A DNA stretch of 64,000 nt from Diplonema papillatum. Taxonomy: Eukaryota > Euglenozoa > Diplonemea > Diplonemida > Diplonemidae. This document shows, piece after piece, positions 3,966 to 53,495 of the stretch. The notes under the pieces are model-generated. The model did not search any database and was not told where the DNA came from. It saw nothing but the letters and a program-made list of their open reading frames with translations. The stretch is taken from positions 403,565-467,564 of the forward strand of contig JAPJBO010000066.1 in assembly GCA_030068145.1 (NCBI GenBank), read 5' to 3'. The position numbers were made by a program, and so were the translations under genes. Each line of letters begins with the position of its first letter. Positions within the stretch are counted from its first letter, which is position 1.

Positions 3966-4087
3966 GTCTTATGCGTCGTGTTCTTGGGGGGGGGGCAGCC
4001 TGGAACTTTGCTTGGCCCTTGACCCCCGCCTACGGTGAGGTCCTTTTTGGGGGTTTTTTTTGGTGGCCTTACCAGCCTCACGACAAT

Positions 4088-4133
4088 GGGGGGGGTCCGG
4101 GGGGCTTCGCCCCCCGGCGAACGGTACGGTACA
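4088..4133 (+). repeat. GC-rich hairpin ending GGTACGGTACA (family R)
   Basis: A G-run plus TCCGGGGGG pairs with CCCCCCGG across a short loop and is followed by GAACGGTACGGTACA. The same module is at 4816-4861, 39010-39053 (same orientation) and at 11820-11862, 11880-11917 and 36511-36557 (opposite orientation). It looks like a transposon terminus. Confidence 0.75.
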
Positions 4134-4196
4134 TGAGTTTGCTCGAAATGAGCGGTCCGGGGGCCACACCACTCGGCGACCCGTTCCAGCAGGTAC

Positions 4197-4645
4197 TTTA
4201 CGGTCGAATTGGGCAGGTAACGCTCGTGTAACGCTAGTTTACAGCCATACTTGGTATGTCACGCTCATGTAACGCTACGTTACAGTCGAATTTGACATGT
4301 CACGCTCGTGTCACGCTACTTTGGAGTCGAATTCGACATGTAACGCTCGTGTCACGCTACTTTACGGTCGAATTGGGCAGGTAACGCTCGGGTAACGCTA
4401 ATTTACAGTCATATTTGGTATGTCACGCTCATGTAACGCTACGTTACAGTCAAATTTGACATGTCACGCTCGTGTCACGCTACTTTACGGTCGAATTGGG
4501 CAGGTAACGCTCGGGTAACGCTAATTTACAGTCATATTTGGTATGTCACGCTCGTGTAACGCTACGTTACAGTCAAATTTGACATGTCACGCTCGTGTCA
4601 CGCTACTTTGGAGTCGAATTCGACATGTAACGCCTTGGGTCGAAA
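4197..4645 (+). repeat. 41-bp array with a-b-c-d higher-order structure
   Basis: Eleven 41-bp units share the core ACGCT...TAACGCTA. Four variants can be told apart: a (TCGAATTGGGCAGGTAACG), b (CATATTTGGTATGTCACG), c (AATTTGACATGTCACG) and d (GGAGTCGAATTCGACATG). Their order is a b c d, a b c, a b c d. This implies amplification of a 164-bp block with later loss of one d unit. Confidence 0.9.
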
Positions 4646-4815
4646 TAAGCGGACGCCGAACGCCACCCCCAATTATAGGTGTTCCTCCGGTGGCCCGCGC
4701 AGCGGCGATTTCTTTTTTTTTTTTGCGAGCGGGGTTTGGGGCCAGAACCTTATGCAGCCCGTTTTTCCCTTCAGAATAGACACCAACCCCGTTTTCTCTC
4801 GCGAGTTTTAATATA

Positions 4816-4861
4816 GGGGGGGGTCCGGGGGGCACCGCCCCCCGGGAGACGGTACGGTACA
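4816..4861 (+). repeat. GC-rich hairpin ending GGTACGGTACA (family R)
   Basis: Second same-orientation copy of the terminal-hairpin module. GGGGGGGTCCGGGGGG and CCCCCCGG form the stem, and the end is GACGGTACGGTACA. It lies immediately before the 62-bp minisatellite. Confidence 0.75.
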
Positions 4862-4891
4862 TTGAGCCTCAGCTGCCCCTCTCCCCCCTGT

Positions 4892-6074
4892 ACAATTTCC
4901 CGAGGTGGGACAATTTTCCAATGCTGGGTTTCGAGGTCGGAAAACCTATTTGGACAATTTCCCGAGGTGGGACAATTTTCTAATGCTGGGTTTCGAGGTC
5001 GGAAAACCTATTTGGACAATTTCCCGAGGTGGGACAATTTTCCAATGCAGGGTTTCGAGGTCGGAAAACCTATTTGGACAATTTCCCGAGGTGGGACAAT
5101 TTTCCAATGCTGGGTTTCGAGGTCGGAAAACCTATTTGGACAATTTCCCGAGGTGGGACAATTTTCCAATGCTGGGTTTCGAGGTCGGAAAACCTATTTG
5201 GACAATTTCCCGAGGTGGGACAATTTTCTAATGCTGGGTTTCGAGGTCGGAAAACCTATTTGGACAATTTCCCGAGGTGGGACAATTTTCCAATGCTGGG
5301 TTTCGAGGTCGGAAAACCTATTTGGACAATTTCCCGAGGTGGGACAATTTTCCAATGCTGGGTTTCGAGGTCGGAAAACCTATTTGGACAATTTCCCGAG
5401 GTGGGACAATTTTCTAATGCTGGGTTTCGAGGTCGGAAAACCTATTTGGACAATTTCCCGAGGTGGGACAATTTTCCAATGCTGGGTTTCGAGGTCGGAA
5501 AACCTATTTGGACAATTTCCCGAGGTGGGACAATTTTCTAATGCTGGGTTTCGAGGTCGGAAAACCTATTTGGACAATTTCCCGAGGTGGGACAATTTTC
5601 CAATGCTGGGTTTCGAGGTCGGAAAACCTATTTGGACAATTTCCCGAGGTGGGACAATTTTCCAATGCAGGGTTTCGAGGTCGGAAAACCTATTTGGACA
5701 ATTTCCCGAGGTGGGACAATTTTCCAATGCTGGGTTTCGAGGTCGGAAAACCTATTTGGACAATTTCCCGAGGTGGGACAATTTTCCAATGCTGGGTTTC
5801 GAGGTCGGAAAACCTATTTGGACAATTTCCCGAGGTGGGACAATTTTCTAATGCTGGGTTTCGAGGTCGGAAAACCTATTTGGACAATTTCCCGAGGTGG
5901 GACAATTTTCCAATGCTGGGTTTCGAGGTCGGAAAACCTATTTGGACAATTTCCCGAGGTGGGACAATTTTCCAATGCTGGGTTTCGAGGTCGGAAAACC
6001 TATTTGGACAATTTCCCGAGGTGGGACAATTTTCTAATGCTGGGTTTCGAGGTCGGAAAACCTATTTGGACAAT
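4892..6074 (+). repeat. 62-bp minisatellite, 19 copies
   Basis: Nineteen 62-bp units read TTTCCCGAGGTGGGAC ... GGTTTCGAGGTCGG ... CCTATTTGG. Three variants differ at two sites: A (CCAATGCTGG), B (CTAATGCTGG) and C (CCAATGCAGG). Their order is ABCAABAABABACAABAAB, so units 3-9 and 13-19 are identical seven-unit blocks 620 bp apart. Because 62 is not a multiple of three, each forward frame cycles through all three registers with a 62-residue period. B units add a TAA in one register. The last unit reads straight into the hAT-derived frame that follows. Confidence 0.97.
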
Positions 6075-7046
6075 CTGAAGTATTTGCACGAATTGTTTCG
6101 TACAATTGCCTCCCCGCAGCTTGTTGCCCAGCTTGAAGCAGGACTGGCTTGCGAGATAGAAGGAGCCGTTCGCAATACTCAAATGCGACTGTGCAAAATG
6201 GCCATCGACAACACCGTTCCGAAAAGGTTTCGGGCTATTCACCAGGACATAACCAAACTTATGGTCCCGGAAGTAGTCCTTTCGGAACACGTGGTGCTTG
6301 CGAACCTGGTCGTAAGCTGTGTTCTCTGCAAAGAGGCGGAACTACGGCAACCAGGCTTCAGGAAAGACGCGTGGGAGAGTCTGTGCTCCTTTGCTGACGT
6401 ACCGCCAAAGAGTCTGTTGCAGGAGTGGCAGACTCTAAAGGCTGCAGCCATAGCCTTCAAGAAGAGTTCGGGCGCACCGAACCCATTGCAGTTCTGGTCG
6501 GAGCGACTGGCCTCGTACGCGGACATGACAGAAAATGTCCCGCGCGTGGTGCAAGTTGCCATCTGCTGCACGTGCGCTAGTAGCGCCGGCGTAGAGCGTG
6601 ACTTCGGTCAGATGCGGGCGCGACTGCCCTCAGTACGCAACCGGACGAAAGTGCCAAGCGTCAGTGCAGAGCTGATGTTGGTGAAAAACGGTCCGAGGGA
6701 TGATGCTGCTGCAAGGGAGCTCATCGAGACCGGAAGTAGACTTTGGTGGGCGCAGAAACGTCGACGGGCCGCTGGTGACGGCCGGAAGAAGACAGAACCG
6801 GCTCCAGATTCCAAGTGGGAAAAACTGGAGGCAGTTAATGTCAGGTTTGCCGCTGACGGAAAGACTCTCTTCGAGAAGGCAGTTTTAGTGTTGACTGCAT
6901 TTGAAGAAGAAGAAGAAGTTGAAGAAGTTGAAGAAGATGAAGAAGCGACAGAGGAAGATTCTACGTCTTGCGGTTCGTCCTCCTCTTCCCTTTCCTCGTC
7001 CTCGTCCTCGTCCTCGTCCCCGTCTTCGTCCCGGTCCGACGAATGA
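6075..7046 (+). pseudogene. hAT-family transposase, C-terminal part
   Basis: The product has the C-terminal dimerisation/catalytic region of hAT DNA transposases. A PLQFWSERLASYADM segment (6487-6531) precedes a hydrophobic stretch and ASSAGVERDFGQMRARL (6580-6630), which matches the family pattern of a small-residue run, E-R-x-F and a basic R. The N-terminal BED zinc finger and most of the RNase H-like core are missing; in their place the frame continues upstream into the 62-bp minisatellite without a stop. The tail is acidic (poly-Glu, 6900-6957) then poly-Ser (6976-7040). I infer a truncated transposase whose 5' part was lost or replaced by repeat expansion. Whether any fusion product is made is unknown. 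Confidence 0.7.
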
Positions 7047-7252
7047 GCAGAGGTGACGCAGAGATTTCTCGTTGCAAGAACGTTAGTGTCGAGCAAACGA
7101 CATCCCTTGAGTTCAGCTCGGGTTCTGTTATTGCAGAAACAAAAACAAATGATTTTGCTAGCGTATTCTGGAGGAAACTAGCTTCACGATCACATACTAA
7201 CCGCGGCATACTTTTTGTGCAAGCCCGACGCTGGGAGACAGTCTCGTCTGAT

Positions 7253-7286
7253 GACGCAGAAGCCTTCGTGCTCTCGCCGTTTTTTT
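7253..7286 (+). repeat. 34-bp outer direct repeat, left copy (X1)
   Basis: The 34 bases from GACGCAGAAGCC to a run of seven T are repeated exactly at 11197-11230. X1 lies directly left of the retroelement's left 99-bp repeat and X2 directly right of the right one. It may be a very long target-site duplication or a recombination-generated duplication. Confidence 0.85.
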
Positions 7287-7385
7287 GCGACAACCAATTT
7301 CTGCTTCCCTGGAGACAGTATTTGTTACAGCTAAAAAGAACGTTGGCAGCGGTTTAACCAGAACACATGTAGGTTAAATCGCACA
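7287..7385 (+). repeat. 99-bp terminal direct repeat, left copy (Y1)
   Basis: This 99-bp sequence, GCGACAACCAATTTCTGC to TTAAATCGCACA, is identical to 11098-11196. It flanks the three coding frames of the retroelement, so it acts as a short terminal direct repeat. It contains the inverted-arm site described separately. Confidence 0.9.
7349..7382 (+). promoter_or_regulatory. candidate tyrosine-recombinase site (left)
   Basis: Two 11-bp arms, GCGGTTTAACC and GGTTAAATCGC, are inverted copies with one mismatch, separated by 12 bp (AGAACACATGTA). Known recombinase sites such as loxP (13-8-13) and dif (11-6-11) have this general form. The same 34 bp occurs at 11160-11193. That the element's own recombinase uses it is an inference. 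Confidence 0.5.
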
Positions 7386-7408
7386 AACAAAAAATAATTG
7401 CTCGTGCT

Positions 7409-8323
7409 ATGGCTTGTGAGTTCAAGGCCGTGGATTGGTCCCCGATCCAGGTTGTCCGCGCCCCCGACGAGTGGGAGGCCGCGGAGGAAGACGTCGACTG
7501 CTGTGTCGATTGTGGAAAAATCCACACCGCGGGGGCGTTTTGTGCCCGATGCGGGAAACGGGGTCTGGCCACCTGCCTCAAAGCGGCGCTCCCAAGGGAA
7601 GTCGCGCCCCTGTTTGTAGACCACTTAGCGGCGGACGGGTGGGTTTGCCCCGCCTGCATAGTGGCGGTGCATCAGGCTGGCACCACTCTTCAAGAAGAGT
7701 TTCGCGTCCGGATCGCTCGTGCTCAAGAGCACGACGCTCCGCCGAGCTTGGCTCAAGAGCCATTGCTCGCTGCCGTTGAGGAGGGCCCGGTCAAGACCGC
7801 TCTCCTCGCTTTGTTCGCCCAATCTGCCTTCCAAAGCCTCCCGATGGCTGCGCAGGCCGCACCGGTCATGACCGAGGCGGTGGACCCACGCCGAGTCATG
7901 ACTTGGGTGGAGGGGTTGGCGACGGCTCCGGGGCGCCAAGTCATCCTGTCCGAAGTAAAGGGCAGATACGCCTACCATTTGGTTCCCGAGAACCCCCACG
8001 ACGCGGGGAGCGTGGTCGACCACGAACGCCGGACGCATTTCGTGACGCTCATTTCCCTGATGCCGTTGGCCTACCGGACCCCGCCTATCCTCCAGGTGCT
8101 CCATCACATCATGGTCCGCCTGGAGGCCCTGCGGCTGAAGTGCTTGCACGCTAACGGGATCGAATTCCAGATTGCGTGGGAGACCAGGTTCGGGTCTTTG
8201 GACTACACCGACTTCACGAAGTCGGCTCTGGTCCAGGCGCAAAAGGCCATGGCCGACCTCTCAAAAAAGGCGGACCAGAGGGACGAAAGGAGGGAGCACC
8301 CCTCGAAGAGGCCGCGGAAGTGA
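7409..8323 (+). CDS. Gag-like zinc-finger protein of the retrotransposon
   Basis: This 304-residue protein is the first frame of the tyrosine-recombinase retrotransposon and probably serves as its nucleocapsid or RNA-binding protein. Near the N-terminus (residues about 31-48) a zinc-binding cluster reads C-V-D-C-G-K-I-H, then C-A-R-C, with a further C-P-A-C near residue 81. The middle is helix-rich without recognisable signatures and the C-terminus is strongly basic (KKADQRDERREHPSKRPRK). The ATG at 7409 follows an A-rich leader 24 bases after the left terminal repeat. The TGA at 8321 is in frame with the recombinase that follows, so the two may be joined by readthrough or were once one polyprotein. 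The Gag role is inferred from position and zinc motif. Confidence 0.65.
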   Translation: MACEFKAVDWSPIQVVRAPDEWEAAEEDVDCCVDCGKIHTAGAFCARCGKRGLATCLKAALPREVAPLFVDHLAADGWVCPACIVAVHQAGTTLQEEFRVRIARAQEHDAPPSLAQEPLLAAVEEGPVKTALLALFAQSAFQSLPMAAQAAPVMTEAVDPRRVMTWVEGLATAPGRQVILSEVKGRYAYHLVPENPHDAGSVVDHERRTHFVTLISLMPLAYRTPPILQVLHHIMVRLEALRLKCLHANGIEFQIAWETRFGSLDYTDFTKSALVQAQKAMADLSKKADQRDERREHPSKRPRK

Positions 8324-9289
8324 ATTGCGGCGAGCGCTTCCGTTCCCACCGGCCTGCCTTCGGAGGGTTTGTGGAACGAGTTGGCAGCGAGGTCACGACC
8401 TCGGAAAAAGGACTCCGCGTGCCCCGATCAAGATCGGTTCCGGACGGACCAGGAGTCACTACTCCTCGCGTTGCAGAAGTGCTACAAGAGCACCCCTGCT
8501 ATGCTGTCGGTGGTGAGCCGTGCTCACAGGTACGCAGTGGAGGCCCGCCGGTTTTACCCCGCATTGTCCGACGAGGAGGCTTTCCTCATGTGGGTGAACC
8601 GGAAGATGATGGCCGGCGAGCTCACTGCCGAATCTGCCCTCCAGTACGCAACGTACTTCAGGATGTCCCGGGTGGACTGGATGGGTGCTTATCGCCGTTC
8701 GGTCAAGCTGACCATGGAACAGTTCGAGGGCCGACGCACCCGCGACGCCGGACGGACTCCGACCAAGGCGGCGATACAGTTGGTAGTCTCACGAGGCTCG
8801 TCCTTGCACGCCATGGCCCTCCGGTTCCAGTGGTCGACGGCTTGCAGGTTCGTGGATCTGCAGCGGATTCGGCTGGACCACATGTGGTCGGTGGACACAG
8901 GACAGGTCATGATCCTGTTCGTCGGCGGGAAGACCGACCCTACCTCAAGAGGCCAGGGTCTCTTGCTACCGCGAAGCGGTCCTTTTCTGACGCCTTTCTG
9001 GGAATGGATCACGATCCATCGGCCGGCCCTGGGCACCAAGGCGCCCCTGTTCCCCAACCTGTCACGACAGGCCTACAACAGTTTCCTACAAGAGGAGCTG
9101 GGGGTGTCGTCGCACCGCATCAGACATGCCGCGCTGAGCTGGGTGGCCCTCCTGGAGGGCGAGCAGACGGCGATGAACGTGGGGCGACACCTGAATCCCA
9201 GGACGACGCGCTTATACACTCCGCATCACCTTTGGCAGCCGGTCCTGCTCTCAGCCCCGGGCACAGCTGCCTTGCAAAGGACTGGGTGA
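8324..9289 (+). CDS. tyrosine recombinase of the retrotransposon
   Basis: It catalyses integration of the element's circular DNA form by tyrosine-based strand exchange. Recognisable catalytic boxes are the first arginine in A-C-R-F-V-D-L (codon 8846-8848), H-R-I-R-H (H at 9113, R at 9122), and G-R-H-L-N-P-R-T-T-R-L-Y, where the histidine at 9188 and the nucleophilic tyrosine at 9215 fit the family. The N-terminal part is helical, as expected for the core-binding domain. The frame is open from the Gag stop at 8321-8323. The first ATG in this frame is near 8501, so expression may depend on readthrough of that single TGA. All expected catalytic residues are present, suggesting an intact enzyme. 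Confidence 0.8.
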   Translation: MAASASVPTGLPSEGLWNELAARSRPRKKDSACPDQDRFRTDQESLLLALQKCYKSTPAMLSVVSRAHRYAVEARRFYPALSDEEAFLMWVNRKMMAGELTAESALQYATYFRMSRVDWMGAYRRSVKLTMEQFEGRRTRDAGRTPTKAAIQLVVSRGSSLHAMALRFQWSTACRFVDLQRIRLDHMWSVDTGQVMILFVGGKTDPTSRGQGLLLPRSGPFLTPFWEWITIHRPALGTKAPLFPNLSRQAYNSFLQEELGVSSHRIRHAALSWVALLEGEQTAMNVGRHLNPRTTRLYTPHHLWQPVLLSAPGTAALQRTG

Positions 9290-10881
9290 ACAGCGGCCCC
9301 GCCAAACAATCGCTGTGGCCGCGTCATCTCGACAAGATCCTGCAGGGGTATGACTACGCCAACGGCTGGCTAGACGCGAGTAGCGGGAAACGGGTCACGA
9401 AGGCCTCGTATGACGGAGAGATCGCCGCGACCGCCCCGCCGTTCAATCACGAAGCGCTTTTGCAGGATTTCCCCAGCCTCCGCAGCAACATGAGGTGGGT
9501 CCTCGACGCCGCGTTCATCGCCGCCATGCTGAAGCCGGGCTCGTTCGTATCCGGCCCGGGGCCCCGCAACTCCCGAATGATGCCGCACGTCGATCGCTTG
9601 CTTGAGTTGGAGGTCGCTGCATCGGTCCCTAAAGCGGCGTCTTCCCGCTGGTTCCACGGCGCGTTTACGGTGGACAAACGGGCTCCCGGTCAGCTGCGCT
9701 TCATCCTCAGCTGCGAATCCATCAACCGGGCTACGGCACACGTGCCTCTGCCCCCCTGCGACCTGCCCAGCTACGCCACCATCGTGACTACGGTGCTGTC
9801 CCGCAAGTGGGTGGCTGAGTTCGACTTCCGCTCCTTTTTCTTCCAGTTTGCGCTGCCTCCAGAGGTCAGGAAGTATTTCTGTTTCCGTGTTGAGGGCAGG
9901 CTGATGTGGATGACGCGCCTGCCGATGGGCTACCGTGCCGCGCCTCAGGCGGCCCAGGCGGTCTCGCTGGAGCTTGCGGTTGCCGCCGCCCAGGGTGTTG
10001 ACGTTCAGGTCCTCGCGTGGATCGACAACGTGATCTTCGTGGCGGACACTGAGGCCGAAGTTATGGAGGCCTCGGCTCGCTTCAAGGCTTTGACTTCGAA
10101 GTACGGCTTGACCATCGGGAGCTGGTCTAAGCCTTCTACCCGCGCGGTGCTGCTGGGACTGGATCTCGACCTCGCAGCGAAGAGATGGCGCGTGGACCCA
10201 GCCTGGACGATGAAGGCCGGACCGGTAATGGGCCAGATCTTGGAGTTCAGTGCGGCTCCCGTCCGCGTGTGGTGGAAACTGACCGGGTCTCTGCTCTGGC
10301 GTCGCCACGTGATGGGGTACCCTCTCCACGAGGTACTTCCCCTCTTGCAGTGGATGTCCGCCCTGGCCTCCGGCCGCGCGTCTACCGACAGCGCGTTCTG
10401 GGACTCCGTCGCGCCTTGCCCAGCTGCGGTCAAGAGCTGCCTCGCTGCCCAGTGCTCCGACATGCGGGGTAACGCCTGGCGGCAATGGTGTAGACCGGTT
10501 TACACTCGTTCGATCGATGTCGTCTCCGACGCCAGCATGTCGGCATGGGCATTCGTGGCAGACGGGTTCCATATCTATGGGGGCTTTCCTCCGGAGTTGC
10601 ACCACGCGGACATCTTCATGAAGGAGCTATACGCCGTCGTTCGGGCCGTGGAGCACGCAGTCCACGGCCAGTCGAGCATGGACATCAACCTGCTTTGTGA
10701 CAACAAGGCGGTGATAGGCTGCATACGCCGCGGCTACACGCTTCGTCAGGATGCGATGCAGCTGCTAACTCTGATCAACAAGAGCTTGGCCTCATCCAGG
10801 AGCCGGCTCAACATCAGCTACGTTCCGTCGCTCCAGAACATCGCGGATCAGTACACAAGACTGAATCGTCCGCCATGTTAG
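9289..10881 (+). CDS. reverse transcriptase-RNase H of the retrotransposon
   Basis: It copies the element's RNA into DNA and removes the RNA strand. RT blocks are clear: RFILSCESIN, then VAEFDFRSFFFQF with the first catalytic Asp, then RLPMGYRAAP, then the active-site motif AWIDNVIF (Asp 10024-10026, Asn 10027-10029). The usual second Asp is thus Asn. RNase H follows with D in VSDAS (10528), E in MKELYAV (10624), D in LCDNKAV (10699) and D in IADQYTR (10846). The frame is one base back from the recombinase frame and stays open upstream to about 8176, so the exact start is not defined; a -1 frameshift at the recombinase end is possible. The first ATG after the recombinase is at about 9490. No methyltransferase domain was seen. 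Confidence 0.8.
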   Translation, partial: NSGPAKQSLWPRHLDKILQGYDYANGWLDASSGKRVTKASYDGEIAATAPPFNHEALLQDFPSLRSNMRWVLDAAFIAAMLKPGSFVSGPGPRNSRMMPHVDRLLELEVAASVPKAASSRWFHGAFTVDKRAPGQLRFILSCESINRATAHVPLPPCDLPSYATIVTTVLSRKWVAEFDFRSFFFQFALPPEVRKYFCFRVEGRLMWMTRLPMGYRAAPQAAQAVSLELAVAAAQGVDVQVLAWIDNVIFVADTEAEVMEASARFKALTSKYGLTIGSWSKPSTRAVLLGLDLDLAAKRWRVDPAWTMKAGPVMGQILEFSAAPVRVWWKLTGSLLWRRHVMGYPLHEVLPLLQWMSALASGRASTDSAFWDSVAPCPAAVKSCLAAQCSDMRGNAWRQWCRPVYTRSIDVVSDASMSAWAFVADGFHIYGGFPPELHHADIFMKELYAVVRAVEHAVHGQSSMDINLLCDNKAVIGCIRRGYTLRQDAMQLLTLINKSLASSRSRLNISYVPSLQNIADQYTRLNRPPC

Positions 10882-11097
10882 CGCCCAACATCGACTTCCC
10901 GCTTCGTCGAGTCCTCGTCAAGTGGGTCGGTTGGTTCTTCCGCCGTGTGGCATGCAAGTCATCATATCAGGCGATCAGCCGCTTTTTTGCTTAGTTTTCC
11001 GCCGGGTCCCATCCCGGGTTATCTGTCGCTTACGGTGGTGAGAAGGAGGGGGGGGTCCGAATAGGGGCCGCTCGTGCTCCGGTGCCTGTTCTTTTAT

Positions 11098-11196
11098 GCG
11101 ACAACCAATTTCTGCTTCCCTGGAGACAGTATTTGTTACAGCTAAAAAGAACGTTGGCAGCGGTTTAACCAGAACACATGTAGGTTAAATCGCACA
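11098..11196 (+). repeat. 99-bp terminal direct repeat, right copy (Y2)
   Basis: Identical to 7287-7385, closing the retrotransposon on the right. It contains the second copy of the 11-12-11 inverted-arm site at 11160-11193. Between the RT stop and this repeat lie about 215 bp of non-coding sequence with a G-run at 11048-11055. Confidence 0.9.
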
Positions 11197-11230
11197 GACG
11201 CAGAAGCCTTCGTGCTCTCGCCGTTTTTTT
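11197..11230 (+). repeat. 34-bp outer direct repeat, right copy (X2)
   Basis: Exact copy of 7253-7286, again ending in seven T. Beyond it the sequence (CTTAGCTCTTAGC) presumably resumes the locus interrupted by the insertion. Confidence 0.85.
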
Positions 11231-11686
11231 CTTAGCTCTTAGCAAGGTGCAATAAGACCATCCTGTACAGGCATGGAACGACCAAACACATCCACTCCCC
11301 GATGGTGCAGATGAGCTTAATTTGCAACCAACCGAGCTACAGCAGTGAGCCTTGGCCAGTGGCGAACGAGGGTGGCAGGCTCGTCTACAAAGTGTGTCTG
11401 AGCCCTTCATGAGGTAGAGCCGATGAACATGCATGAGCTTCGAGTATTGTCTGCGGGTCATCGCGCCTGTCCCGTGTTCCAGCGAGCATACCTTTCTGCA
11501 AAAACCTAGAGACAAGTCAATATCGAAAGCCCTGGTGAAGTTCAGACGTGCTAATGACTCGTCAAGCGAAGGACATTTCGTACCATAAACGGCTAACAGG
11601 ACAATTCTGCTGGAAATCTCAGCTAGCTTGCCAAGCCAGCATCCCTTCTACCGTGCGCCGGATGGAGCCCTCCCGGACCTTCCCCT
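11231..11686. other. non-coding, presumed downstream part of hAT locus
   Basis: No gene is recognised. By position it continues the sequence that was interrupted by the retroelement at 7286. A minus-strand open frame here has no recognisable domain. Confidence 0.4.
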
Positions 11687-11800
11687 GTCACACAGCATCA
11701 CGCGGCGTAAAAAGACCAATATCGACCGTCACACAGCATCACACGACGTAACCAGGCCAAATTCGACCGTCACAAACCGCCAAATTCGAGTGTAAGCCTG
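11687..11800 (+). repeat. 41-bp tandem repeat, about 2.7 copies
   Basis: Units GTCACACAGCATCAC...CGACC start at 11687, 11728 and 11769, the last one degenerate. The period equals that of the 4197-4645 array, and the CAAATTCGAC core recalls that array in inverse orientation. Like that array it neighbours a GGTACGGTACA hairpin module. Confidence 0.75.
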
Positions 11801-11819
11801 TAAGGCCACCTGTTTGTTG

Positions 11820-11917
11820 TGTACCGTACCGTGCCCCGGGGGGGCTGCCCCCCGGACCCCCCATGCAAGCAGTTTGATTTACCGTACCGTTCGGCGGGGG
11901 GTGAAGCTCGGACCCGG
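11820..11917 (-). repeat. two GC-rich hairpin modules (family R), inverted
   Basis: TGTACCGTACCGTGCCCC with a C/G stem (11820-11862) is followed by a second, less complete module, TACCGTACCGTTCGGCGGGG (11879-11917). Both face opposite to those at 4088 and 4816. Confidence 0.65.
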
Positions 11918-20040: not shown

Positions 20041-23000
20041 CGACTTCGTGCTAGCAAGGGGGTAACCTAGCAACGAGTTAAGGCTTCGTGCTAGCAAGGG
20101 GGTAACCTAGCAACGACTTAAGGCTTCGTGCTAGCAAGGGGGTAACCTAGCAACGAGTTAAGGCTTCGTGCTAGCAAGGGGGTAACCTAGCAACGAGTTA
20201 AGGCTTCGTGCTAGCAAGGGGGTAACCTAGCAACGAGTTAAGGCTTCGTGCTAGCAAGGGGGTAACCTAGCAACGAGTTAAGGCTTCGTGCTAGCAAGGG
20301 GGTAACCTAGCAACGAGTTAAGGCTTCGTGCTAGCAAGGGGGTAACCTAGCAACGAGTTAAGGCTTCGTGCTAGCAAGGGGGTAACCTAGCAACGAGTTA
20401 AGGCTTCGTGCTAGCAAGGGGGTAACCTAGCAACGAGTTAAGGCTTCGTGCTAGCAAGGGGGTAACCTAGCAACGAGTTAAGGCTTCGTGCTAGCAAGGG
20501 GGTAACCTAGCAACGAGTTAAGGCTTCGTGCTAGCAAGGGGGTAACCTAGCAACGAGTTAAGGCTTCGTGCTAGCAAGGGGGTAACCTAGCAACGAGTTA
20601 AGGCTTCGTGCTAGCAAGGGGGTAACCTAGCAACGAGTTAAGGCTTCGTGCTAGCAAGGGGGTAACCTAGCAACGAGTTAAGGCTTCGTGCTAGCAAGGG
20701 GGTAACCTAGCAACGAGTTAAGGCTTCGTGCTAGCAAGGGGGTAACCTAGCAACGAGTTAAGGCTTCGTGCTAGCAAGGGGGTAACCTAGCAACGAGTTA
20801 AGGCTTCGTGCTAGCAAGGGGGTAACCTAGCAACGAGTTAAGGCTTCGTGCTAGCAAGGGGGTAACCTAGCAACGAGTTAAGGCTTCGTGCTAGCAAGGG
20901 GGTAACCTAGCAACGAGTTAAGGCTTCGTGCTAGCAAGGGGGTAACCTAGCAACGAGTTAAGGCTTCGTGCTAGCAAGGGGGTAACCTAGCAACGAGTTA
21001 AGGCTTCGTGCTAGCAAGGGGGTAACCTAGCAACGAGTTAAGGCTTCGTGCTAGCAAGGGGGTAACCTAGCAACGAGTTAAGGCTTCGTGCTAGCAAGGG
21101 GGTAACCTAGCAACGAGTTAAGGCTTCGTGCTAGCAAGGGGGTAACCTAGCAACGAGTTAAGGCTTCGTGCTAGCAAGGGGGTAACCTAGCAACGAGTTA
21201 AGGCTTCGTGCTAGCAAGGGGGTAACCTAGCAACGAGTTAAGGCTTCGTGCTAGCAAGGGGGTAACCTAGCAACGAGTTAAGGCTTCGTGCTAGCAAGGG
21301 GGTAACCTAGCAACGAGTTAAGGCTTCGTGCTAGCAAGGGGGTAACCTAGCAACGAGTTAAGGCTTCGTGCTAGCAAGGGGGTAACCTAGCAACGAGTTA
21401 AGGCTTCGTGCTAGCAAGGGGGTAACCTAGCAACGAGTTAAGGCTTCGTGCTAGCAAGGGGGTAACCTAGCAACGAGTTAAGGCTTCGTGCTAGCAAGGG
21501 GGTAACCTAGCAACGAGTTAAGGCTTCGTGCTAGCAAGGGGGTAACCTAGCAACGAGTTAAGGCTTCGTGCTAGCAAGGGGGTAACCTAGCAACGAGTTA
21601 AGGCTTCGTGCTAGCAAGGGGGTAACCTAGCAACGAGTTAAGGCTTCGTGCTAGCAAGGGGGTAACCTAGCAACGAGTTAAGGCTTCGTGCTAGCAAGGG
21701 GGTAACCTAGCAACGAGTTAAGGCTTCGTGCTAGCAAGGGGGTAACCTAGCAACGAGTTAAGGCTTCGTGCTAGCAAGGGGGTAACCTAGCAACGAGTTA
21801 AGGCTTCGTGCTAGCAAGGGGGTAACCTAGCAACGAGTTAAGGCTTCGTGCTAGCAAGGGGGTAACCTAGCAACGAGTTAAGGCTTCGTGCTAGCAAGGG
21901 GGTAACCTAGCAACGAGTTAAGGCTTCGTGCTAGCAAGGGGGTAACCTAGCAACGAGTTAAGGCTTCGTGCTAGCAAGGGGGTAACCTAGCAACGAGTTA
22001 AGGCTTCGTGCTAGCAAGGGGGTAACCTAGCAACGAGTTAAGGCTTCGTGCTAGCAAGGGGGTAACCTAGCAACGAGTTAAGGCTTCGTGCTAGCAAGGG
22101 GGTAACCTAGCAACGAGTTAAGGCTTCGTGCTAGCAAGGGGGTAACCTAGCAACGAGTTAAGGCTTCGTGCTAGCAAGGGGGTAACCTAGCAACGAGTTA
22201 AGGCTTCGTGCTAGCAAGGGGGTAACCTAGCAACGAGTTAAGGCTTCGTGCTAGCAAGGGGGTAACCTAGCAACGAGTTAAGGCTTCGTGCTAGCAAGGG
22301 GGTAACCTAGCAACGAGTTAAGGCTTCGTGCTAGCAAGGGGGTAACCTAGCAACGAGTTAAGGCTTCGTGCTAGCAAGGGGGTAACCTAGCAACGAGTTA
22401 AGGCTTCGTGCTAGCAAGGGGGTAACCTAGCAACGAGTTAAGGCTTCGTGCTAGCAAGGGGGTAACCTAGCAACGAGTTAAGGCTTCGTGCTAGCAAGGG
22501 GGTAACCTAGCAACGAGTTAAGGCTTCGTGCTAGCAAGGGGGTAACCTAGCAACGAGTTAAGGCTTCGTGCTAGCAAGGGGGTAACCTAGCAACGAGTTA
22601 AGGCTTCGTGCTAGCAAGGGGGTAACCTAGCAACGAGTTAAGGCTTCGTGCTAGCAAGGGGGTAACCTAGCAACGAGTTAAGGCTTCGTGCTAGCAAGGG
22701 GGTAACCTAGCAACGAGTTAAGGCTTCGTGCTAGCAAGGGGGTAACCTAGCAACGAGTTAAGGCTTCGTGCTAGCAAGGGGGTAACCTAGCAACGAGTTA
22801 AGGCTTCGTGCTAGCAAGGGGGTAACCTAGCAACGAGTTAAGGCTTCGTGCTAGCAAGGGGGTAACCTAGCAACGAGTTAAGGCTTCGTGCTAGCAAGGG
22901 GGTAACCTAGCAACGAGTTAAGGCTTCGTGCTAGCAAGGGGGTAACCTAGCAACGAGTTAAGGCTTCGTGCTAGCAAGGGGGTAACCTAGCAACGAGTTA

Positions 23001-23840
23001 AGGCTTCGTGCTAGCAAGGGGGTAACCTAGCAACGAGTTAAGGCTTCGTGCTAGCAAGGGGGTAACCTAGCAACGAGTTAAGGCTTCGTGCTAGCAAGGG
23101 GGTAACCTAGCAACGAGTTAAGGCTTCGTGCTAGCAAGGGGGTAACCTAGCAACGAGTTAAGGCTTCGTGCTAGCAAGGGGGTAACCTAGCAACGAGTTA
23201 AGGCTTCGTGCTAGCAAGGGGTAACCTAGCAACGAGTTAAGGCTTCGTGCTAGCAAGGGGGTAACCTAGCAACGAGTTAAGGCTTCGTGCTAGCAAGGGG
23301 GTAACCTAGCAACGAGTTAAGGCTTCGTGCTAGCAAGGGGGTAACCTAGCAACGAGTTAAGGCTTCGTGCTAGCAAGGGGGTAACCTAGCAACGAGTTAA
23401 GGCTTCGTGCTAGCAAGGGGGTAACCTAGCAACGAGTTAAGGCTTCGTGCTAGCAAGGGGGTAACCTAGCAACGAGTTAAGGCTTCGTGCTAGCAAGGGG
23501 GTAACCTAGCAACGAGTTAAGGCTTCGTGCTAGCAAGGGGTAACCTAGCAACGAGTTAAGGCTTCGTGCTAGCAAGGGGGTAACCTAGCAACGAGTTAAG
23601 GCTTCGTGCTAGCAAGGGGGTAACCTAGCAACGAGTTAAGGCTTCGTGCTAGCAAGGGGGTAACCTAGCAACGAGTTAAGGCTTCGTGCTAGCAAGGGGG
23701 TAACCTAGCAACGAGTTAAGGCTTCGTGCTAGCAAGGGGTAACCTAGCAACGAGTTAAGGCTTCGTGCTAGCAAGGGGGTAACCTAGCAACGAGTTAAGG
23801 CTTCGTGCTAGCAAGGGGGTAACCTAGCAACGACTTAAGG
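20041..23840 (+). repeat. 40-bp satellite, about 95 copies
   Basis: The unit is AGGCTTCGTGCTAGCAAGGG followed by GGTAACCTAGCAACGAGTTA, repeated with almost no variation over 3.8 kb. TTCGTGCTAG and CTAGCAACGAG can pair as an imperfect hairpin around the G-run. Only three units have four G instead of five (23218, 23537, 23736), all near the right end. The second and the last units share GACTTA instead of GAGTTA. All six frames are closed by stops in every unit, so it is non-coding. Such homogeneity suggests recent amplification or strong gene conversion. Confidence 0.98.
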
Positions 23841-29090: not shown

Positions 29091-29992
29091 GTGAAGCGAC
29101 CTACTGGCAAAACTCGCACCGCAGCACGCAATGCCGCACTCATGAATGTGCTGTGCATGGGGTGGTCTTGGGCGCCGTGCATTGCGCAGCGCTGCTGGTC
29201 CGGGACCTGGGCCTCGCCTGGGTGGACAACTTCCTTGTCTTGGGTGGGACGCTGGACGAGGCAGAGCGGAACGTGGCCGTTTTTCGGGAGCGGGCGCAGG
29301 CGGCGCGGGTCGAAGTGCGGGCGGAAGGCGACGGCGCGCTGTGGCAGGTTCGCGGTTCGTGTGTGTGGGTGTCGACCTGGCTGCCGAGACGCAGCGGCAC
29401 AGGCTCGACCCGTCGTGGGCGGAGCGGTGGGTCGGCGGCAGCGGGATGACGGCGGTGCTTTCCGGCAGAGCGACGGCCCGACAGTTCGCCGAAGTTTTCG
29501 GGGGCGCCGTCTGGGCGACTGACATCCTGGCAGTGCCCCGCTGCCACTTCGCGGCGTTGCTGTCGTTCGCGGGAAGGCTCGGCGGGCGCATGGTGGACGC
29601 CGCAGCGCCGGTGTGGGACGAGGTCGTCGACGTTCCTCCGTCGGCAAGACGGGAGCTGGGCGCGCTCCGGAAGATCGTCCGGGAGAACCCGTGGGTCGTG
29701 GGCAGCGTCCCTGAGGACACAGGGAACGGACGCGGGCGTGGGCGGCGCTGCTGGAGGCGGAAGGCCGGTTCGTGGACGGGCGGCAGGGCGTGTTCGCGGG
29801 GCCGGATGTGGGCGCCCACATCAACCTGAAGGAGATGTTGGCGTTGGCGGAAGGTGTGGTTCGGCTGTGCTGGGCGCCGGGGGCGCAGCGGTGCCGCGTC
29901 GACAACGCGGCGGTAGTCGGCGCCGTGGCTAAGGGGGAGCTCCTCCTCTCACGCCGCGAATCGCATCCTATCACGGACTATCCGTGCCGCTG
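29091..29992 (+). pseudogene. frameshifted reverse transcriptase-RNase H relic
   Basis: This is a decayed copy of a retroelement polymerase related in type to the one at 9289-10881. Reading across three frames gives, in order: an RT block MNVLCMGWSWAPCIAQRC (third frame, to about 29195), the active-site segment LGLAWVDNFLVLG (second frame, Asp 29225, Asn 29228), a linker region (first frame, to about 29725), and an RNase H part INLKEMLALAEG plus CRVDNAAVVGAV (third frame, about 29821-29925). The first Asp of RNase H and the N-terminal RT blocks are missing. At least three frameshifts make it a pseudogene. GC content is higher than in the flanks. It again has D-N, not D-D, in the RT active site. 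Confidence 0.65.
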
Positions 29993-30387
29993 ACCGCAGA
30001 ATGATCGTCCTGTGTCCTGGCTGGGTGCCGTCCGGCGAACAGCAGGACCCGTACACGCGGGGAGCCTCGTTGCCTCGGTTCCCGGCGCCGCTTCCGCTTC
30101 GCGGTGACGTGCCGCACCCTTTGACTTGTTTTATGTGTTCTCGGAAATGTCAGCGCGGTAGCGATGACAGCGAGAACACATATAGGTGGGAGGGGAGAGG
30201 CCCTGGGACTGCTAAGGCGTGACAACCCAGCCCCTGTCCCTCCCAGGGAGCCACCCCTAAACTAGCCTGCCCACCTGACGGTGGAGGCCCCCCCCAAGAA
30301 ACATTTTTCCCCCCATGCGGGATCGTCGGAAACACAAAAAGGCAGGTATTTCCAAATTGAACACGAAAAACGTAAAAAGAATTAACA
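29993..30387. other. upstream region of receptor A
   Basis: No gene is recognised. The 80 bases before the ATG are A-rich (AACACAAAAAGGCAGG; AAAGAATTAACAATGC), and GATCGTCGGAAACACAAAAA at 30321-30340 resembles GGTCATCGGAAACACAAAAA at 37144-37163. No confident promoter can be named. Confidence 0.4.
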
Positions 30388-32688
30388 ATGCACCGACGGA
30401 TGATGCACGTGCCTTTCCCTGTTGTGGCGGTGCTGGCGATCGTGATCTTGGTCGCGGTGCCGGCGACTGTGGTGTTCTTGGTGACGACGAGCAACGCCGA
30501 AGACTCGATCGACGTCGTGTCGCGGCGGCTGGCGATGGCCACGATGGAGTCGGTTGAGCACCGGATCCACCAAACGGCCCTGGACGAGCCTTTGGCCGAG
30601 CTTCTCGCGGCGAAAGCCGACCTCGAGATGAATGCGACGTCCCTCAAACTTCCCGAAAACGGGCTCTACTGGGGCAAACGCATGGTTCACTGGCTGAAGA
30701 AATCAGAGCTTTTCACGCTGTACATCGCCTCCTGCGCCTCGAGAGCCATCGGCGACATCCATGGCCACGGGCTGGTCGTCGACTCCTTCGCGGATGCCTT
30801 CGCAGTAAACGACCCACCTTTTGTCCACCTCATGCCGCTCGACATGGAAACGGCAACTTGGAATTCAAGTGCTCCCTCAACCGCTAACGTTAACCTCCCG
30901 TCAAGACCGTACGTGACTGCCTTCACCGAAGGTGGCGAAGGCCTTGCCAATGCCGTGGCGAACCTCCCCGTGTGGACGCCTCTGGGGGTGTCCAAGAACC
31001 CGAAGATGGCCAACGGCGGCGGTCTGTTCACCGCCATCACCCTCCCTGTGTTCATGACCCTGACCCCGGACCCGGACGAGCTCATCGGCGTTGTGGCCCT
31101 GGGAATGTACCTCGCGGTCATCAACTTGGCGCCGTTTCTCCTCTCGAACTCTTCGTCCCTCCTCTTGATGGACAGCGATACCACGTTGATATCCTCGACA
31201 GACACGGAACAGGTCTTTTACACCGTGAACGTAAACGGAGTCGACACCTACGTGCAATACACTCTGGCCACGTGCGGCGTCCCTTTGCTGCAAGCGTTGG
31301 CGTCTTCAAATGAGCTGCCGGAGGACCTTTCTACCCGAGAAAACGACAAATCGTTCTTTCAAACGATGAATGGACCGGACGGTGAGTACTGGATCACGAT
31401 CCGTACGATCACGCACTACAACCTCCGGTGGCACGTGGTCATGCTGACCCCGGAGGAGATCTTCTTCGAGAAGATCTACGACAGCAACCGCGAAACGCTG
31501 ATCACTGTCATCGTCATGATCCTCGCCAGTTGTTTGATCTCCATTGGACTGACGCTGGTTGCCACCGACGACTTGAAGAGGTTGGCCCGCGCTTTCGATA
31601 AAATTGCGCTCATCCAGTTGGATCACCCGTCGGTTCAACACGTCAGGACGCGGCACATCATCTCGGAGTACGATTCTTTGTGCAAAGGCTTTTGGCACGC
31701 GGTGGAGATGGTGACGCACGTGCAGGCTTTTCTGCCGAAGGTCGACATCAACGACATCGTCAGCAACGAGTCGTCGACGATGCTGACGATGTCGCACGTA
31801 GAAGGGTCACGCTCGCAGAGTGCATCGGTGACAGGGTCGGTAAACGGGGTGAGCCAGGGGAGGGACAAGGTGGTTGTCGTTAGCGGGAAGGGTGCGAGGA
31901 CGACAGCGGTGGCTGATTCGTTCTCGATCGGGCTCAGGATGTCGAGCGGCGTGACCGGTCTCGTCGTGAGCTTCGACAGCTTCACGCAGGTTTGCAGCGC
32001 GTCTCCCGATCGCGCGAGCGCCGCCCACTGCGAAATGTTCACACTCATCCACGACACCGCGAAGAAGTATCAAGGGGCCATTGCCGGCCTCGACGGATCC
32101 CGCGTCACGGTAGCGTGGAGCACGACGAAGCCATGCTCTCCAGTCACATCGACGCAGCACGCTTTGGCCGCTGCGTTTGAACTCACCCGCGGGGCGAAAC
32201 CGACGCTTCCATTCACCTGCGGCGTCCACCACGCAAGCACGTACCATGGGATCATGGGCAGTAAGTCGCAGCGGTTCAACACCATCGGATCGAACCTCAC
32301 CGACGTCGCGTGCTACCTCGCGCACTACGCGTCCGGGTTGAAGGTGCTCCCCGCGATTCTGGTGTCGGGGGCTGCGGTCAACTTCGTGAAGGGGTTCTGC
32401 TGCTACAAAATCGACGAAGTCCAGCTGCTGACGGCAGACAGCGTGACCGTGTACTGGGCCGAGAAGCAGACCGCGGTGGACAACGCGGAGTGGATGTACC
32501 AGCTCCGGGAGGAGGAGGACGCGCGCAGGACGTTCCTCGACAGCTACTTCGCCGCCATCGCGAACCGAGACCCGCTCCACGCCAAAGTGGCATTGAAGTT
32601 ATTCTCCGAGCAGCACCCGAAGTTCAGCGTGCTGGTCCACCGCCTCCGTACTGCACTGGACGGCCGCTTCTACGACGACCGCTGTTGA
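30388..32688 (+). CDS. receptor A: Cache-like sensor with degenerate class III cyclase domain
   Basis: A 766-residue membrane receptor. A transmembrane helix is at residues 10-32, followed by an extracytoplasmic region of about 335 residues with several Asn-X-Ser/Thr sites and the general look of a double Cache sensor. A second helix (about 370-394) leads into a juxtamembrane block containing SEYDSLCKGFWHAVEMV, which recalls the segment before the cyclase domain in many receptor cyclases. From about 518 to 690 a class III cyclase fold is suggested by GLVVSFDSF and GVHHASTYHGIMGSKSQRF. Neither metal-binding Asp, nor the substrate-selecting pair, nor the transition-state Asn/Arg is in place, so cyclase activity is unlikely. 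The ATG at 30388 follows an A-rich leader. Receptor B (53496-55853) is a paralogue. The ligand and partner are unknown. Confidence 0.75.
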   Translation: MHRRMMHVPFPVVAVLAIVILVAVPATVVFLVTTSNAEDSIDVVSRRLAMATMESVEHRIHQTALDEPLAELLAAKADLEMNATSLKLPENGLYWGKRMVHWLKKSELFTLYIASCASRAIGDIHGHGLVVDSFADAFAVNDPPFVHLMPLDMETATWNSSAPSTANVNLPSRPYVTAFTEGGEGLANAVANLPVWTPLGVSKNPKMANGGGLFTAITLPVFMTLTPDPDELIGVVALGMYLAVINLAPFLLSNSSSLLLMDSDTTLISSTDTEQVFYTVNVNGVDTYVQYTLATCGVPLLQALASSNELPEDLSTRENDKSFFQTMNGPDGEYWITIRTITHYNLRWHVVMLTPEEIFFEKIYDSNRETLITVIVMILASCLISIGLTLVATDDLKRLARAFDKIALIQLDHPSVQHVRTRHIISEYDSLCKGFWHAVEMVTHVQAFLPKVDINDIVSNESSTMLTMSHVEGSRSQSASVTGSVNGVSQGRDKVVVVSGKGARTTAVADSFSIGLRMSSGVTGLVVSFDSFTQVCSASPDRASAAHCEMFTLIHDTAKKYQGAIAGLDGSRVTVAWSTTKPCSPVTSTQHALAAAFELTRGAKPTLPFTCGVHHASTYHGIMGSKSQRFNTIGSNLTDVACYLAHYASGLKVLPAILVSGAAVNFVKGFCCYKIDEVQLLTADSVTVYWAEKQTAVDNAEWMYQLREEEDARRTFLDSYFAAIANRDPLHAKVALKLFSEQHPKFSVLVHRLRTALDGRFYDDRC

Positions 32689-40440: not shown

Positions 40441-41018
40441 GTCCCCAGTGGTCCCCCAGTGTTCCTCGACTTTGGTGGAACATCTCCGGCCGTCCTCCAA
40501 CCTGCATCTAGAGCAAGTTTGCCGGGACTTTCTGGATGTTTTTTGGGTACCCCGCAGGGTTGGGTGCTAGTCGGGTTCCTGTAGGGTTCCATAGGGAACT
40601 GCACTGTGGTGACCTTTCCCTGCTTTCGCATTCTGCGGCCATTCTTTGAGCCTGAACGAGCATCCAACCACTTTCTCTGGATTTTTCGGAGCATTTTGGA
40701 GCCACCTGGGTGGCCAGTTTCGAGTTTTGGTTTCAGACGACTCCCCCCTTTCTTTCTGACCAGAGGGGGTCAGTAGGTTCCAGTGGTCCCCGACTGTTTG
40801 GTGAGACATTCTCCGGCATTTTCTTCAGCCTGCACCGATCTAGGGTAAAGGAAGACGCATCCTGCCCGGAGTCGAAGATTAGCGTCGAAACTTCCTGGCT
40901 TTTCACGCACGCCCTACCCAATCCCAAAAACCCCCGCGTTGGGGGACTTTACAAGGTTTCACAACGGAGTGACACATCACCCGAAACGAGCGGCACCCGC
41001 TCACTTTTTTTGCATAAC
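40441..41018. other. non-coding, unassigned
   Basis: No gene is recognised. 40651-40705 resembles 38460-38510. The sequence just left of the MITE holds no open frame with a domain. Confidence 0.4.
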
Positions 41019-41228
41019 ATGCAGGGTCAAAACCTTGTGTCTTTTTAAAACGCTCCTGCGGGGCCGATGGAGCCCTAAAAATTTTTTCGGAAAAAAAAAA
41101 TTTTGCTCAACTTCCTCAAAAATTACTGCAGAGTTTGTTCCAAACTTTTAAAATTCAAAAAACCCATTTTTTTTCTGGAATTTTTTTTTTTGCCATTTTC
41201 AAAAAGACACAAGGTTCTGACCCTGCAT
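41019..41228. mobile_element. MITE family V, 210 bp
   Basis: Terminal inverted repeats ATGCAGGGTCAAAACC + TTGTGTCTTTTT and AAAAAGACACAAGG + TTCTGACCCTGCAT (28 bp, one mismatch) bound an A/T-rich non-coding centre. The second copy, 46724-46956, is inverted relative to this one in its interior. No exact target-site duplication is evident; an R1b repeat begins immediately at its right end. Confidence 0.85.
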
Positions 41229-41446
41229 GATAAGCACCTGCTTTGTAGGAAATGCTTGAGGAGACTGCCAGTTGCGATAGATCAAAGGAGGTAAATGTGC
41301 TGCAGCCCACACGAAACACAGGTAACCCTGGGTTTAGTGGCGGGCGTAAGCGTTCAACAAAAAAGACCCACTTTGTAGTTGTATTGTTTTCTCCCCCTCT
41401 AGCCTCCTTCGAAATGAGCACAAGGCAGTCCCTCGAGTATTTTCAG
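41229..41446 (+). repeat. SINE-sized dispersed repeat R1b
   Basis: GATAAGCACCTGCTTTG to CTCGAGTATTTTCAGC. It abuts the MITE to its left. Confidence 0.9.
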
Positions 41447-41943: not shown

Positions 41944-42720
41944 TCACCTCCTCTTCTTCGACACCTTGAAGCCAAAGCTCGAGAGACCAGCAGCAGCGGC
42001 CTTTCGCACTTTTCCTGTCTTTGCGGTTGGTGCAGATGCCTGGGTCAGCAACGATTCTGGCTCTGTATTCACTGGTGCAGGGGTCACTTCTGCTGTCTCC
42101 CGAGGCCGGACTTGCACGGGAACACGCGATTGCGAAAGAGGTTTCTCATCAAGAGATGAATCGTCATCCTCGCGCTTGACTCTTTCTGTAAGCGTCTGCG
42201 GCGCATTTTCAGCCACAGTGTAACCGCCTTGTCGATTATCCTGGGGAATTCGGGGCTCTCTATCTTCGGGGTATTGTGCCGGATAAAACATTCGGTGTTG
42301 AGGAGCGGCACACCCATTCTCATACGCCTCTTGCTTCGAACGTAGTTCGCCACCGAAAAGCATGCCTCGCATGCTACGGACGTCGGGGTTGCAACGGCCT
42401 CACGGACCAAGCAAGCAGCAAGGTCGCTATCGCAGTTCTGGTCGGACTCGGATTCACGTTGTGCTGACACTTTCGCGAGGATAAGGTCAGTTGCATCACC
42501 CGTAATGCTATCGACTTCATCCAGGACGTCAGCCTTCATGTACTGACAACGCGTTCGACCTGAAGTCTTTCAGCCCCCTTTTCTTGCACAAGTCTGCGAT
42601 CACGGCATCGCTCGCGTCACGCTCCTGCCCATTCCAGTTTTTCGCAAAAAATATGGAAGGGCGGTATGACGCATGCTTCCACTTGCTCAGGCGTTTCTTG
42701 TAAGATGCTTTCGCTATCAT
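41944..42720 (-). pseudogene. hAT-family transposase relic (C-terminal)
   Basis: On the minus strand the frame ending at 42084 contains ATPTSVACEACFSVANYVRS (about 42393-42334) followed by a basic RRMRMGVPLL and ECFIRHN. This is the C-terminal hAT dimerisation pattern, with Ala/Cys in place of the usual Ser-Glu-Arg. An upstream minus-strand frame (42720-42529) in another register may be the preceding part, and a third register (42372-41944) ends in a basic KKRR. So at least one or two frameshifts are present. It is unrelated in detail to the hAT remnant at 6075-7046. The N-terminal zinc finger and catalytic core are absent. Confidence 0.55.
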
Positions 42721-42779
42721 TTTGCGGAATTTCGCAGCTCCAGAGAATGCCTCAACGGAATTACCCGACTGGACCGGAA

Positions 42780-43265
42780 GTCATCCGCATGTTGAAAGCT
42801 GAAATGGACCGTGAACCGCAGGCAGAGTCCGTGATGACAGACCTGACGGTAAGCCGGAAAAGGAAGCTGGAGCACCTTTCGACACTGTGTCCGCTTGCAG
42901 CACGGTCTAGCGTTGAACGGGCTGCTCAGTCGCTCACGACTTCCTCGGTCGAAGCAGGGACCTGGCAGCAGTACTTCGTTGCTGTACGGTCCTGGACCAA
43001 CTTTGCGGACGCAATCAACTGTCGCCACTTTCCCATAGGGTCGGAAGAGTTGAGGCTATTCGTGACTACGCATACGAACGCAGATCTTACTCGGAGTGGC
43101 TCTGCGTATCGCCCGAACTTACCCATCGCAGACGAGGCGTCCAGGAAGAAAGACTCGCCAAAAGATAGTATGAAGATGTTATGTCTTGTAACTCAGGGAG
43201 CTGCGCAGGGCTTGCGCCATCACTGCCGTCTGAGACGAAGAGTTGACCGCGAAAATAAAGAAGAC
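42780..43265 (+). pseudogene. possible tyrosine-recombinase N-terminal relic
   Basis: The plus-strand frame encodes TSSVEAGTWQQYFVAVRSW followed by FADAINCRHFPIGSEELRL (about 42940-43060), a pattern like the SAM-like core-binding domain of tyrosine recombinases (T..Y..A...W..F....FP.S...L). The sequence beyond residue 140 does not give the catalytic boxes, and part of it is duplicated downstream. I read it as a broken piece of a Crypton- or DIRS-type recombinase. The start is not determined, since the hAT relic overlaps on the other strand up to 42720. Confidence 0.35.
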
Positions 43266-43608: not shown

Positions 43609-43648
43609 TGATTTCCTGCAACGATGCAACGATGGTTAGGGATATGTG

Positions 43649-43866
43649 CGATAAGCACCTGCTTTGTAGGAGATGCTTGAGGAGACTGCCAGTTGCGATA
43701 GAACAAAGGAGGTAAATGTGCTGTAGCCCACACGAAACACGGGTGAATCTGGGTTTAGTGGCGGGCGTAAGCGTTCAACAAAAAAGACCCACTTTGGAGT
43801 TGTATTGTGTTCTCCCCCTCTAGCCTCCTTCGAAATGAGCACAAGGCAGTCCCTCGAGTATTTTTT
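43649..43866 (+). repeat. SINE-sized dispersed repeat R1b
   Basis: GATAAGCACCTGCTTTG to CTCGAGTATTTT, near-identical to 41229-41446. Confidence 0.9.
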
Positions 43867-53462: not shown

Positions 53463-53495
53463 TCTGCTTCAGGTGTGGGTGAAGAAAAAGAAAAC

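Follow-up and report, generated by a model that had tools for sequence, protein, structure and literature searches.

A tyrosine-recombinase retrotransposon of Diplonema papillatum and its probable likeness to VIPER and TATE

A 64,000-nucleotide stretch of contig JAPJBO010000066.1 of Diplonema papillatum (assembly GCA_030068145.1, positions 403,565 to 467,564, forward strand), called the window here, carries a tyrosine-recombinase (YR) retrotransposon at window positions 7287-11196. The element is 3.9 kb long and complete between two identical 99-bp direct repeats, and its order is confirmed as a gag-like open reading frame (ORF), an in-frame TGA, the YR, and then reverse transcriptase (RT) and RNase H (RH) in the -1 frame. 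Diplonema is a marine single-celled diplonemid, and diplonemids are the sister group of kinetoplastids. We consider it probable that the element inserted recently and belongs to a multi-copy YR retrotransposon family of this diplonemid, built like the VIPER and TATE elements of kinetoplastids. This likeness is one of gene order and repeat plan as published, and the family is a candidate for membership of the VIPER-like group. The features of the element and its flanks, all on the plus strand, are these:

7253-7286 (+): left copy of the 34-bp target site duplication, with the T7 run of the target at its end; identical to 11197-11230, and present in one copy at 19 of 19 other target-repeat loci fetched
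7287-7385 (+): A1, left terminal direct repeat of 99 bp, 99 of 99 bases identical to 11098-11196
7409-8320 (+): gag-like ORF, first ATG at 7409 in a frame open over 7373-8320; Cys/His-rich N-terminal part and basic C-terminus
8321-8323 (+): in-frame TGA between gag and YR, from the reading of the frame; kept in other copies
8324-9286 (+): tyrosine recombinase; PHROG_1 integrase match, E 0.0055, with catalytic residues invariant in five subfamily members
9287-9289 (+): stop codon of YR (TGA), from the reading of the frame
9292-10878 (+): RT and RH, -1 relative to YR, in a frame open over 8155-10878; Pfam RVT_1, E 8.7e-9; retroviral RT 1d0e_A of the PDB, E 4.2e-7
11070-11097 (+): B1, upstream of A2 and ending in TTCTTTTAT, its T-rich end being the proposed recombination core; recurs as B2 in copies L021 and C267
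11098-11196 (+): A2, right terminal direct repeat, identical to A1
11197-11230 (+): right copy of the 34-bp target site duplication, not element sequence, identical to 7253-7286

A reading of the sequence without database searches (the sequence-only reading) had described 7287-11230 as a tyrosine-recombinase retrotransposon. Positions 7287-11196 are indeed the element, and the last 34 bases belong to the target duplication. The class itself is borne out by the RVT_1 match in the RT and by the weaker PHROG_1 match in the YR, which reaches E 3.7e-5 at best among the three of five subfamily members that match. Pfam Phage_integrase matches the YR of two of the five members (best E 0.0088), the window YR having no match, and no recombinase came up when the PDB was searched with a profile of the YR alignment. 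Six YR positions (R175, K203, H264, R267, H289 and Y298, numbered within 8324-9286) and four acidic RH positions (D413, E445, D470 and D519, numbered within 9292-10878) are invariant in the five aligned members. By analogy with their families these would be the catalytic residues, and with this proviso they are visible as had been said. In all five members the RT motif is WIDN instead of YxDD. The RH call rests on motif and position, with a weak PHROG match (E 0.028); RH has no Pfam match and is not among the PDB matches. For the gag-like ORF no significant match was found in the libraries searched. An AlphaFold model of the YR from its single sequence was too poor to be used (pLDDT 40).

The RT stop codon lies 216 bases before A2. 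A1 closes with an 11-bp inverted repeat (1 mismatch) whose arms are separated by a 12-bp spacer, and of 200 shuffles of 7287-7388 all but one fold less well than the native sequence (z -2.9). A repeat search with a minimum of 20 bases found no inverted pair at the ends of the element, which are direct repeats, unlike those of DIRS1-like elements. A methyltransferase domain was not found either, RVT_1 being the sole Pfam match in the RT ORF.

The search for further copies covered the 271-Mb genome, with 80 of 2676 first-look candidates scored, and its copy counts are lower bounds. At least 84 RT matches were found; among the matches listed, nine are full-length at 100% identity, the window copy included, and others stand at about 98, 89-90, 83, 69 and 40%. 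Twenty loci with RT identity down to 40% were picked from the list and fetched whole. Every one of them has the order gag-YR-RT with RT in the -1 frame, a recombinase after the RT was seen in none, and 18 have the single in-frame TGA between gag and YR, the exceptions being L011 and L022, in which gag is out of frame with YR. The TGA persists in subfamilies whose gag identity is as low as 30%. Since the fetched copies share this order and the TGA, both are traits of the family and not accidents of one copy, so that what had been noticed in the window, namely gag and YR in one frame split by a single TGA and a polymerase in the -1 frame, carries over to the copies. The identity of A1 and A2, together with the nine RTs at 100%, indicates recent movement of the family. 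Beyond this genome, no relative was found in the viral, prokaryotic genome, plasmid and phage collections searched.

Some of these loci hold other arrangements. At L015 (87-1255) gag segments are repeated and the start of another copy follows A2, as in a tandem array. On the reverse complement of L024 (5019-5220), beside a full copy, lies a short remnant with an internal deletion, in which the gag start is joined to a B1-like piece; it may be a non-autonomous derivative, comparable to what SIRE is to VIPER. Elsewhere in the window, 29139-29960 (+) is a degenerate RT-RH relic with broken frames and the motif WVDN, which tblastn aligns to the element RT in pieces of 26% and 36% identity (E 1.5e-6). 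ORF 42564-43712, considered as a second YR, gave no significant match.

The gene order had been thought to be unusual and perhaps the mark of a distinct lineage. Its novelty is ruled out by the published structure of VIPER and TATE, which share gag-YR-RT (PMC12278014, PMC6681497). VIPER and TATE are described with a gag-like ORF and two overlapping ORFs (YR and RT/RH), with repeats of the form A1 and B1-A2-B2, and as inserting without target duplication (PMC12278014), and in TATE the RT is ORF3, with other repeat orders in Bodo (PMC6681497). The same order of gag-like, YR and RT/RH, with YR and RT/RH overlapping, is found in the window family. As for the split repeats, the window copy is without B2, and the full A1..B1-A2-B2 plan is present in C267, in L021 and in the distant relative L028 (RT identity 40%). 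In L028, A1 and A2 are 152 bases long and 99% identical, a 37-base B unit occurs twice in the order A1..B1-A2-B2, and there are T runs at the ends. Also in the 40% group, L027 ends in B plus a long T run, without A2.

Several differences remain from the elements known in kinetoplastids such as Leishmania braziliensis and Bodo saltans. TATE, which has the same gene order, YR-RT/RH overlap and split direct repeats, lies within telomeric hexamer repeats in L. braziliensis (PMC6681497), whereas the window family targets T runs, mostly without B2 at the right end (33 of 35), and the window copy has its 34-bp duplication. VIPER, which agrees in gene order, ORF overlap and, for some relatives, the A1..B1-A2-B2 plan, makes no target duplication (PMC12278014), unlike the window copy with its 34 bp; C267 and L018 have none. 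The VIPER description consulted has, in the parts available, no mention of an in-frame TGA between gag and YR.

Other YR retroelements are less similar. In Ngaro and PAT the YR follows RT/RH, unlike in this family, where it lies upstream in 20 of 20 copies. Both have split direct repeats, as do some copies here (PMC3783388, PMC4157794), and PAT is in a group with a methyltransferase domain (PMC4157794), unlike the window family. DIRS1 likewise combines RT/RH with a YR and integrates via a short identical core without duplication (PMC3266345), but it has inverted terminal repeats and a methyltransferase (PMC3266345, PMC4157794), neither of which was found here. A further difference is that the DIRS1 recombinase has its catalytic domain at the 3' end of its ORF, past the overlap with pol (PMC3266345).

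VIPER has been described as kinetoplastid-only (PMC3783388), and VIPER/TATE matches outside kinetoplastids are few (PMC6681497, which also reports a grouping of VIPER/TATE RH with hepadnavirus RH). TATE-like ORFs are mentioned in the D. papillatum genome paper, which puts TATE among DNA transposons (PMC10161547). Apart from this mention, no VIPER-like lineage characterised outside kinetoplastids was found in the literature searched, and no paper linking diplonemids with DIRS was found there.

The coding frames are supported by composition and by substitutions. Through most of 7450-9250 third-position GC is in favour of the gag/YR frame, except at 7630-7810 (frame 0), and it moves to the RT frame only at about 9310. 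Substitutions relative to L019, L020, L021, L023 and L024 fall mostly on third positions in gag, in the main YR and in the RT frame. Upstream of 9241 the RT frame is without such a bias and is not supported as coding there. Both TGA stops of the gag/YR frame (8320-8325 and 9286-9291) sit in GTGAAY, which resembles a splice donor; the single acceptor viewed by eye is out of frame, and L019 and L023 are without the motif at the gag stop.

The ends were compared in 39 copies, made up of the window copy, the fetched loci other than L027 and L028 (18 of 20) and a further 20 pairs of flanks. In blastn most full copies are similar from 7278-7281 to 11199, L017 stopping at 11053, and in the 69% group the similarity has a later start or is broken up. 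A run of 5 to 19 T stands directly 5' of the element in all 34 readable left ends, 31 of which have at least 6 T; as background, 0.3% of window positions have TTTTT before them. C2349 and L023 have their flanks in common and probably represent a single insertion event. Directly before A2, 15 of the 18 copies viewed read TTCTTTTAT or TTCTTTTTT; the three in which no core was located belong to the 69% group, and one of them, L024, reads CTCTTTT. At the right, 29 of 35 ends extend A2 with AACAA and more A, and five copies of the 69% group read CGCACAAACAAA too, which brings the count to 34; the window copy's end alone stops at CGCACA. The right ends of L011, L013, L015, C516 and C754 continue into sequence normally found 3' of A1.

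Empty sites show what three of the insertions did to their targets. In C267 the B2 unit of 30 bases, ending in T6, is identical to B1 at 30 of 30 positions. Its joined flanks have an uninterrupted match in C749, and many other places match over a shorter length that spans the junction; the three empty sites viewed read T10 (L094, L095) or T11 (L096) followed by GGGGTCC. The occupied site reads T10 then A1 at the left and B2-T6 then GGGGTCC at the right. C267 was thus inserted by conservative exchange in the T run, the T10 of the target remaining at the left and the T6 of the element at the right, with neither duplication nor loss, as YR chemistry predicts. At L018, which is without B2, five empty sites were viewed (L089, L090, L091, L092 and L093), with T5 in four and TTATT in one, followed by CCAGGGGA and TCGATCC. 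With the element in place, T6 precedes A1 and, at the right, AACAAAAA precedes TCGATCC, so that about 8 bases were lost. For the window copy, 40 matches to the right flank were listed and 20 fetched, of which 19 are other loci; at all 19 the 34-bp unit stands once, without an insert, which makes the repeat at the window copy a true target duplication without loss. Empty sites were also sought for L020, L021 and L022 and none was found, the flanks of L020 and L021 being unique. In the comparison of flanks for duplications, which took in 16 copies (L026 skipped), L014 has a 43-bp repeat with 42 identical bases.

The 34-bp repeat was also considered as a part of the element or a recombination site and rejected, being absent from other copies and single in the 19 empty sites; its likeness to B1, reached by 20 of 5000 shuffles with the T run and 421 of 5000 without, was not used. 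The insertion sits in a DNA element with GC-rich inverted ends (window about 4086-11864), 23 copies of which, this one included, are about 100% identical among the 40 flank matches listed. Its ORF 6084-7043 resembles by eye a hAT C-terminus, with no such Pfam match.

From the frames and ends, the following course may be proposed. Gag would be made by termination at the TGA and YR as a Gag-YR fusion by leaky UGA, and RT would be made by a -1 shift or a restart near 9250-9290. The RNA would then be copied into a circle with a B-T6-A junction, and YR would exchange strands between the T6 core and a target T run. Where B2 is missing, YR exchange would account for the T6/A1 end alone; the A2 end, which usually continues as AACAA and more A, would become attached through repair to target DNA close by. 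A join upstream of the T run would give a duplication (34 bp in the window, 43 bp at L014), and one downstream a small loss (about 8 bp at L018). Annealing of the A-rich end of A2 nearby is suggested by two junctions, L016 and L014, and is not seen at the window copy. Tentatively, we propose two insertion modes, a conservative two-ended T6 exchange and a commoner one-ended YR joining with host repair, in a VIPER-like lineage outside kinetoplastids; taken as a whole, this proposal is possible and not yet likely.

A number of observations sit poorly with this account. A 34-bp target duplication, proven at the window copy, is unexpected for a YR element, and B2 is present in 2 of 35 right ends (L021 and C267) and absent in 33, including that of the window copy. 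The two-ended mode rests on the C267 empty site plus the structure of L021 and L028. L016 and L025 have long flank repeats, perhaps duplications, in repetitive targets (for L016, 522 bases align and 498 of them are identical). Apart from these two, the window copy and L014, the 16 copies compared leave 12 in which no convincing flank duplication was found, the match at L011 being short and A/T-rich. The A-rich stretch shared at the right junction occurs in L016 and roughly in L014 and is absent in the window copy. As for expression, no RNA structure was found at the gag TGA (z 0.34) or at the YR/RT junction (z -0.36), and the candidate for a canonical -1 slippery heptamer, CCCGGGC at 9256, was rejected as weak and is not kept in L023, L024 and L028. 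The first 60 YR codons past the TGA have a weak third-position bias relative to L019-L021, the 89% group (counts 10, 9, 11); the bias is clearer relative to L023 (14, 14, 24) and L024 (14, 17, 27).

The duplications of 34 bp and about 43 bp and the short A-rich right end would also suit retro-copying of the element RNA by host long interspersed nuclear element (LINE) machinery, through target-primed reverse transcription and with YR uninvolved in the insertions seen, and the roughly 2500 gene models of retroelements reported for Diplonema include LINE-type genes (PMC10161547). We judge this quite unlikely, given that a T run stands directly 5' in 34 of 34 readable copies, the duplication-free copy included, that the element has a T-rich core of its own upstream of A2, and that C267, with A1..B1-A2-B2, was inserted conservatively.

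It is also unlikely that the family is a new YR retroelement lineage unrelated to VIPER/TATE in which the same order was reached independently. The host, a diplonemid, is sister to kinetoplastids, which argues for a common origin. The order, the YR-RT overlap, the split repeats in some copies and the lack of a methyltransferase all agree with the VIPER/TATE descriptions, and TATE-like ORFs are reported in Diplonema (PMC10161547). Yet parallel evolution of structural features is described among YR elements (PMC4157794). An independent origin would also fit with the lack of relatives in the viral, prokaryotic, plasmid and phage collections searched, the likeness to VIPER/TATE being one of structure. 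A Ngaro-like element with rearranged genes is highly improbable: YR precedes RT in 20 of 20 copies, and in Ngaro it comes after RT/RH. The split direct repeats and the lack of a methyltransferase are nonetheless common to Ngaro and this family (PMC4157794). A VIPER/TATE-like family remains our preferred reading.

Other features of the window and genome were observed in passing. At 44374-44520 (+) a 5.8S rRNA match stands by itself, neither 18S nor 28S being present in the window, and 39 other copies among the matches listed align only to its first 128 bases. Ribosomal DNA (rDNA) units recur every 7628-7630 bases on contigs C746, C667, C217 and C15, the published D. papillatum unit being about 7.6 kbp (PMC10161547). 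Long tandem arrays lie at 4765-6180 and 20044-23840, with periods of 62 bp and about 80 bp. The 3' part of the diplonemid spliced leader, as we take it to read, has 661 genome matches at no more than 1 mismatch and its reversed control none; three matches viewed show a longer leader, one with a base change. Two related long ORFs, 30376-32685 and 53403-55850 (+), have 73% DNA identity over part of their length, the latter with a marginal guanylate cyclase match (E 0.057). Window 41011-41236 has a far-below-threshold microRNA family score on both strands and is perhaps a palindromic mobile element.

The family includes complete retrotransposons with the TATE gene order, where the genome paper put TATE among DNA transposons (PMC10161547, in the part consulted). 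Being abundant and young, and with empty sites at hand, it allows tests of YR retrotransposon insertion, of the core site and of the age of the group. If the two modes hold, the one-ended mode would make duplications or small losses, which VIPER and TATE reportedly do not make, and the T-run core directly predicts the sequence of the circular junction. This would then be the first VIPER-like lineage characterised outside kinetoplastids, and the group would be older than the split between kinetoplastids and diplonemids.

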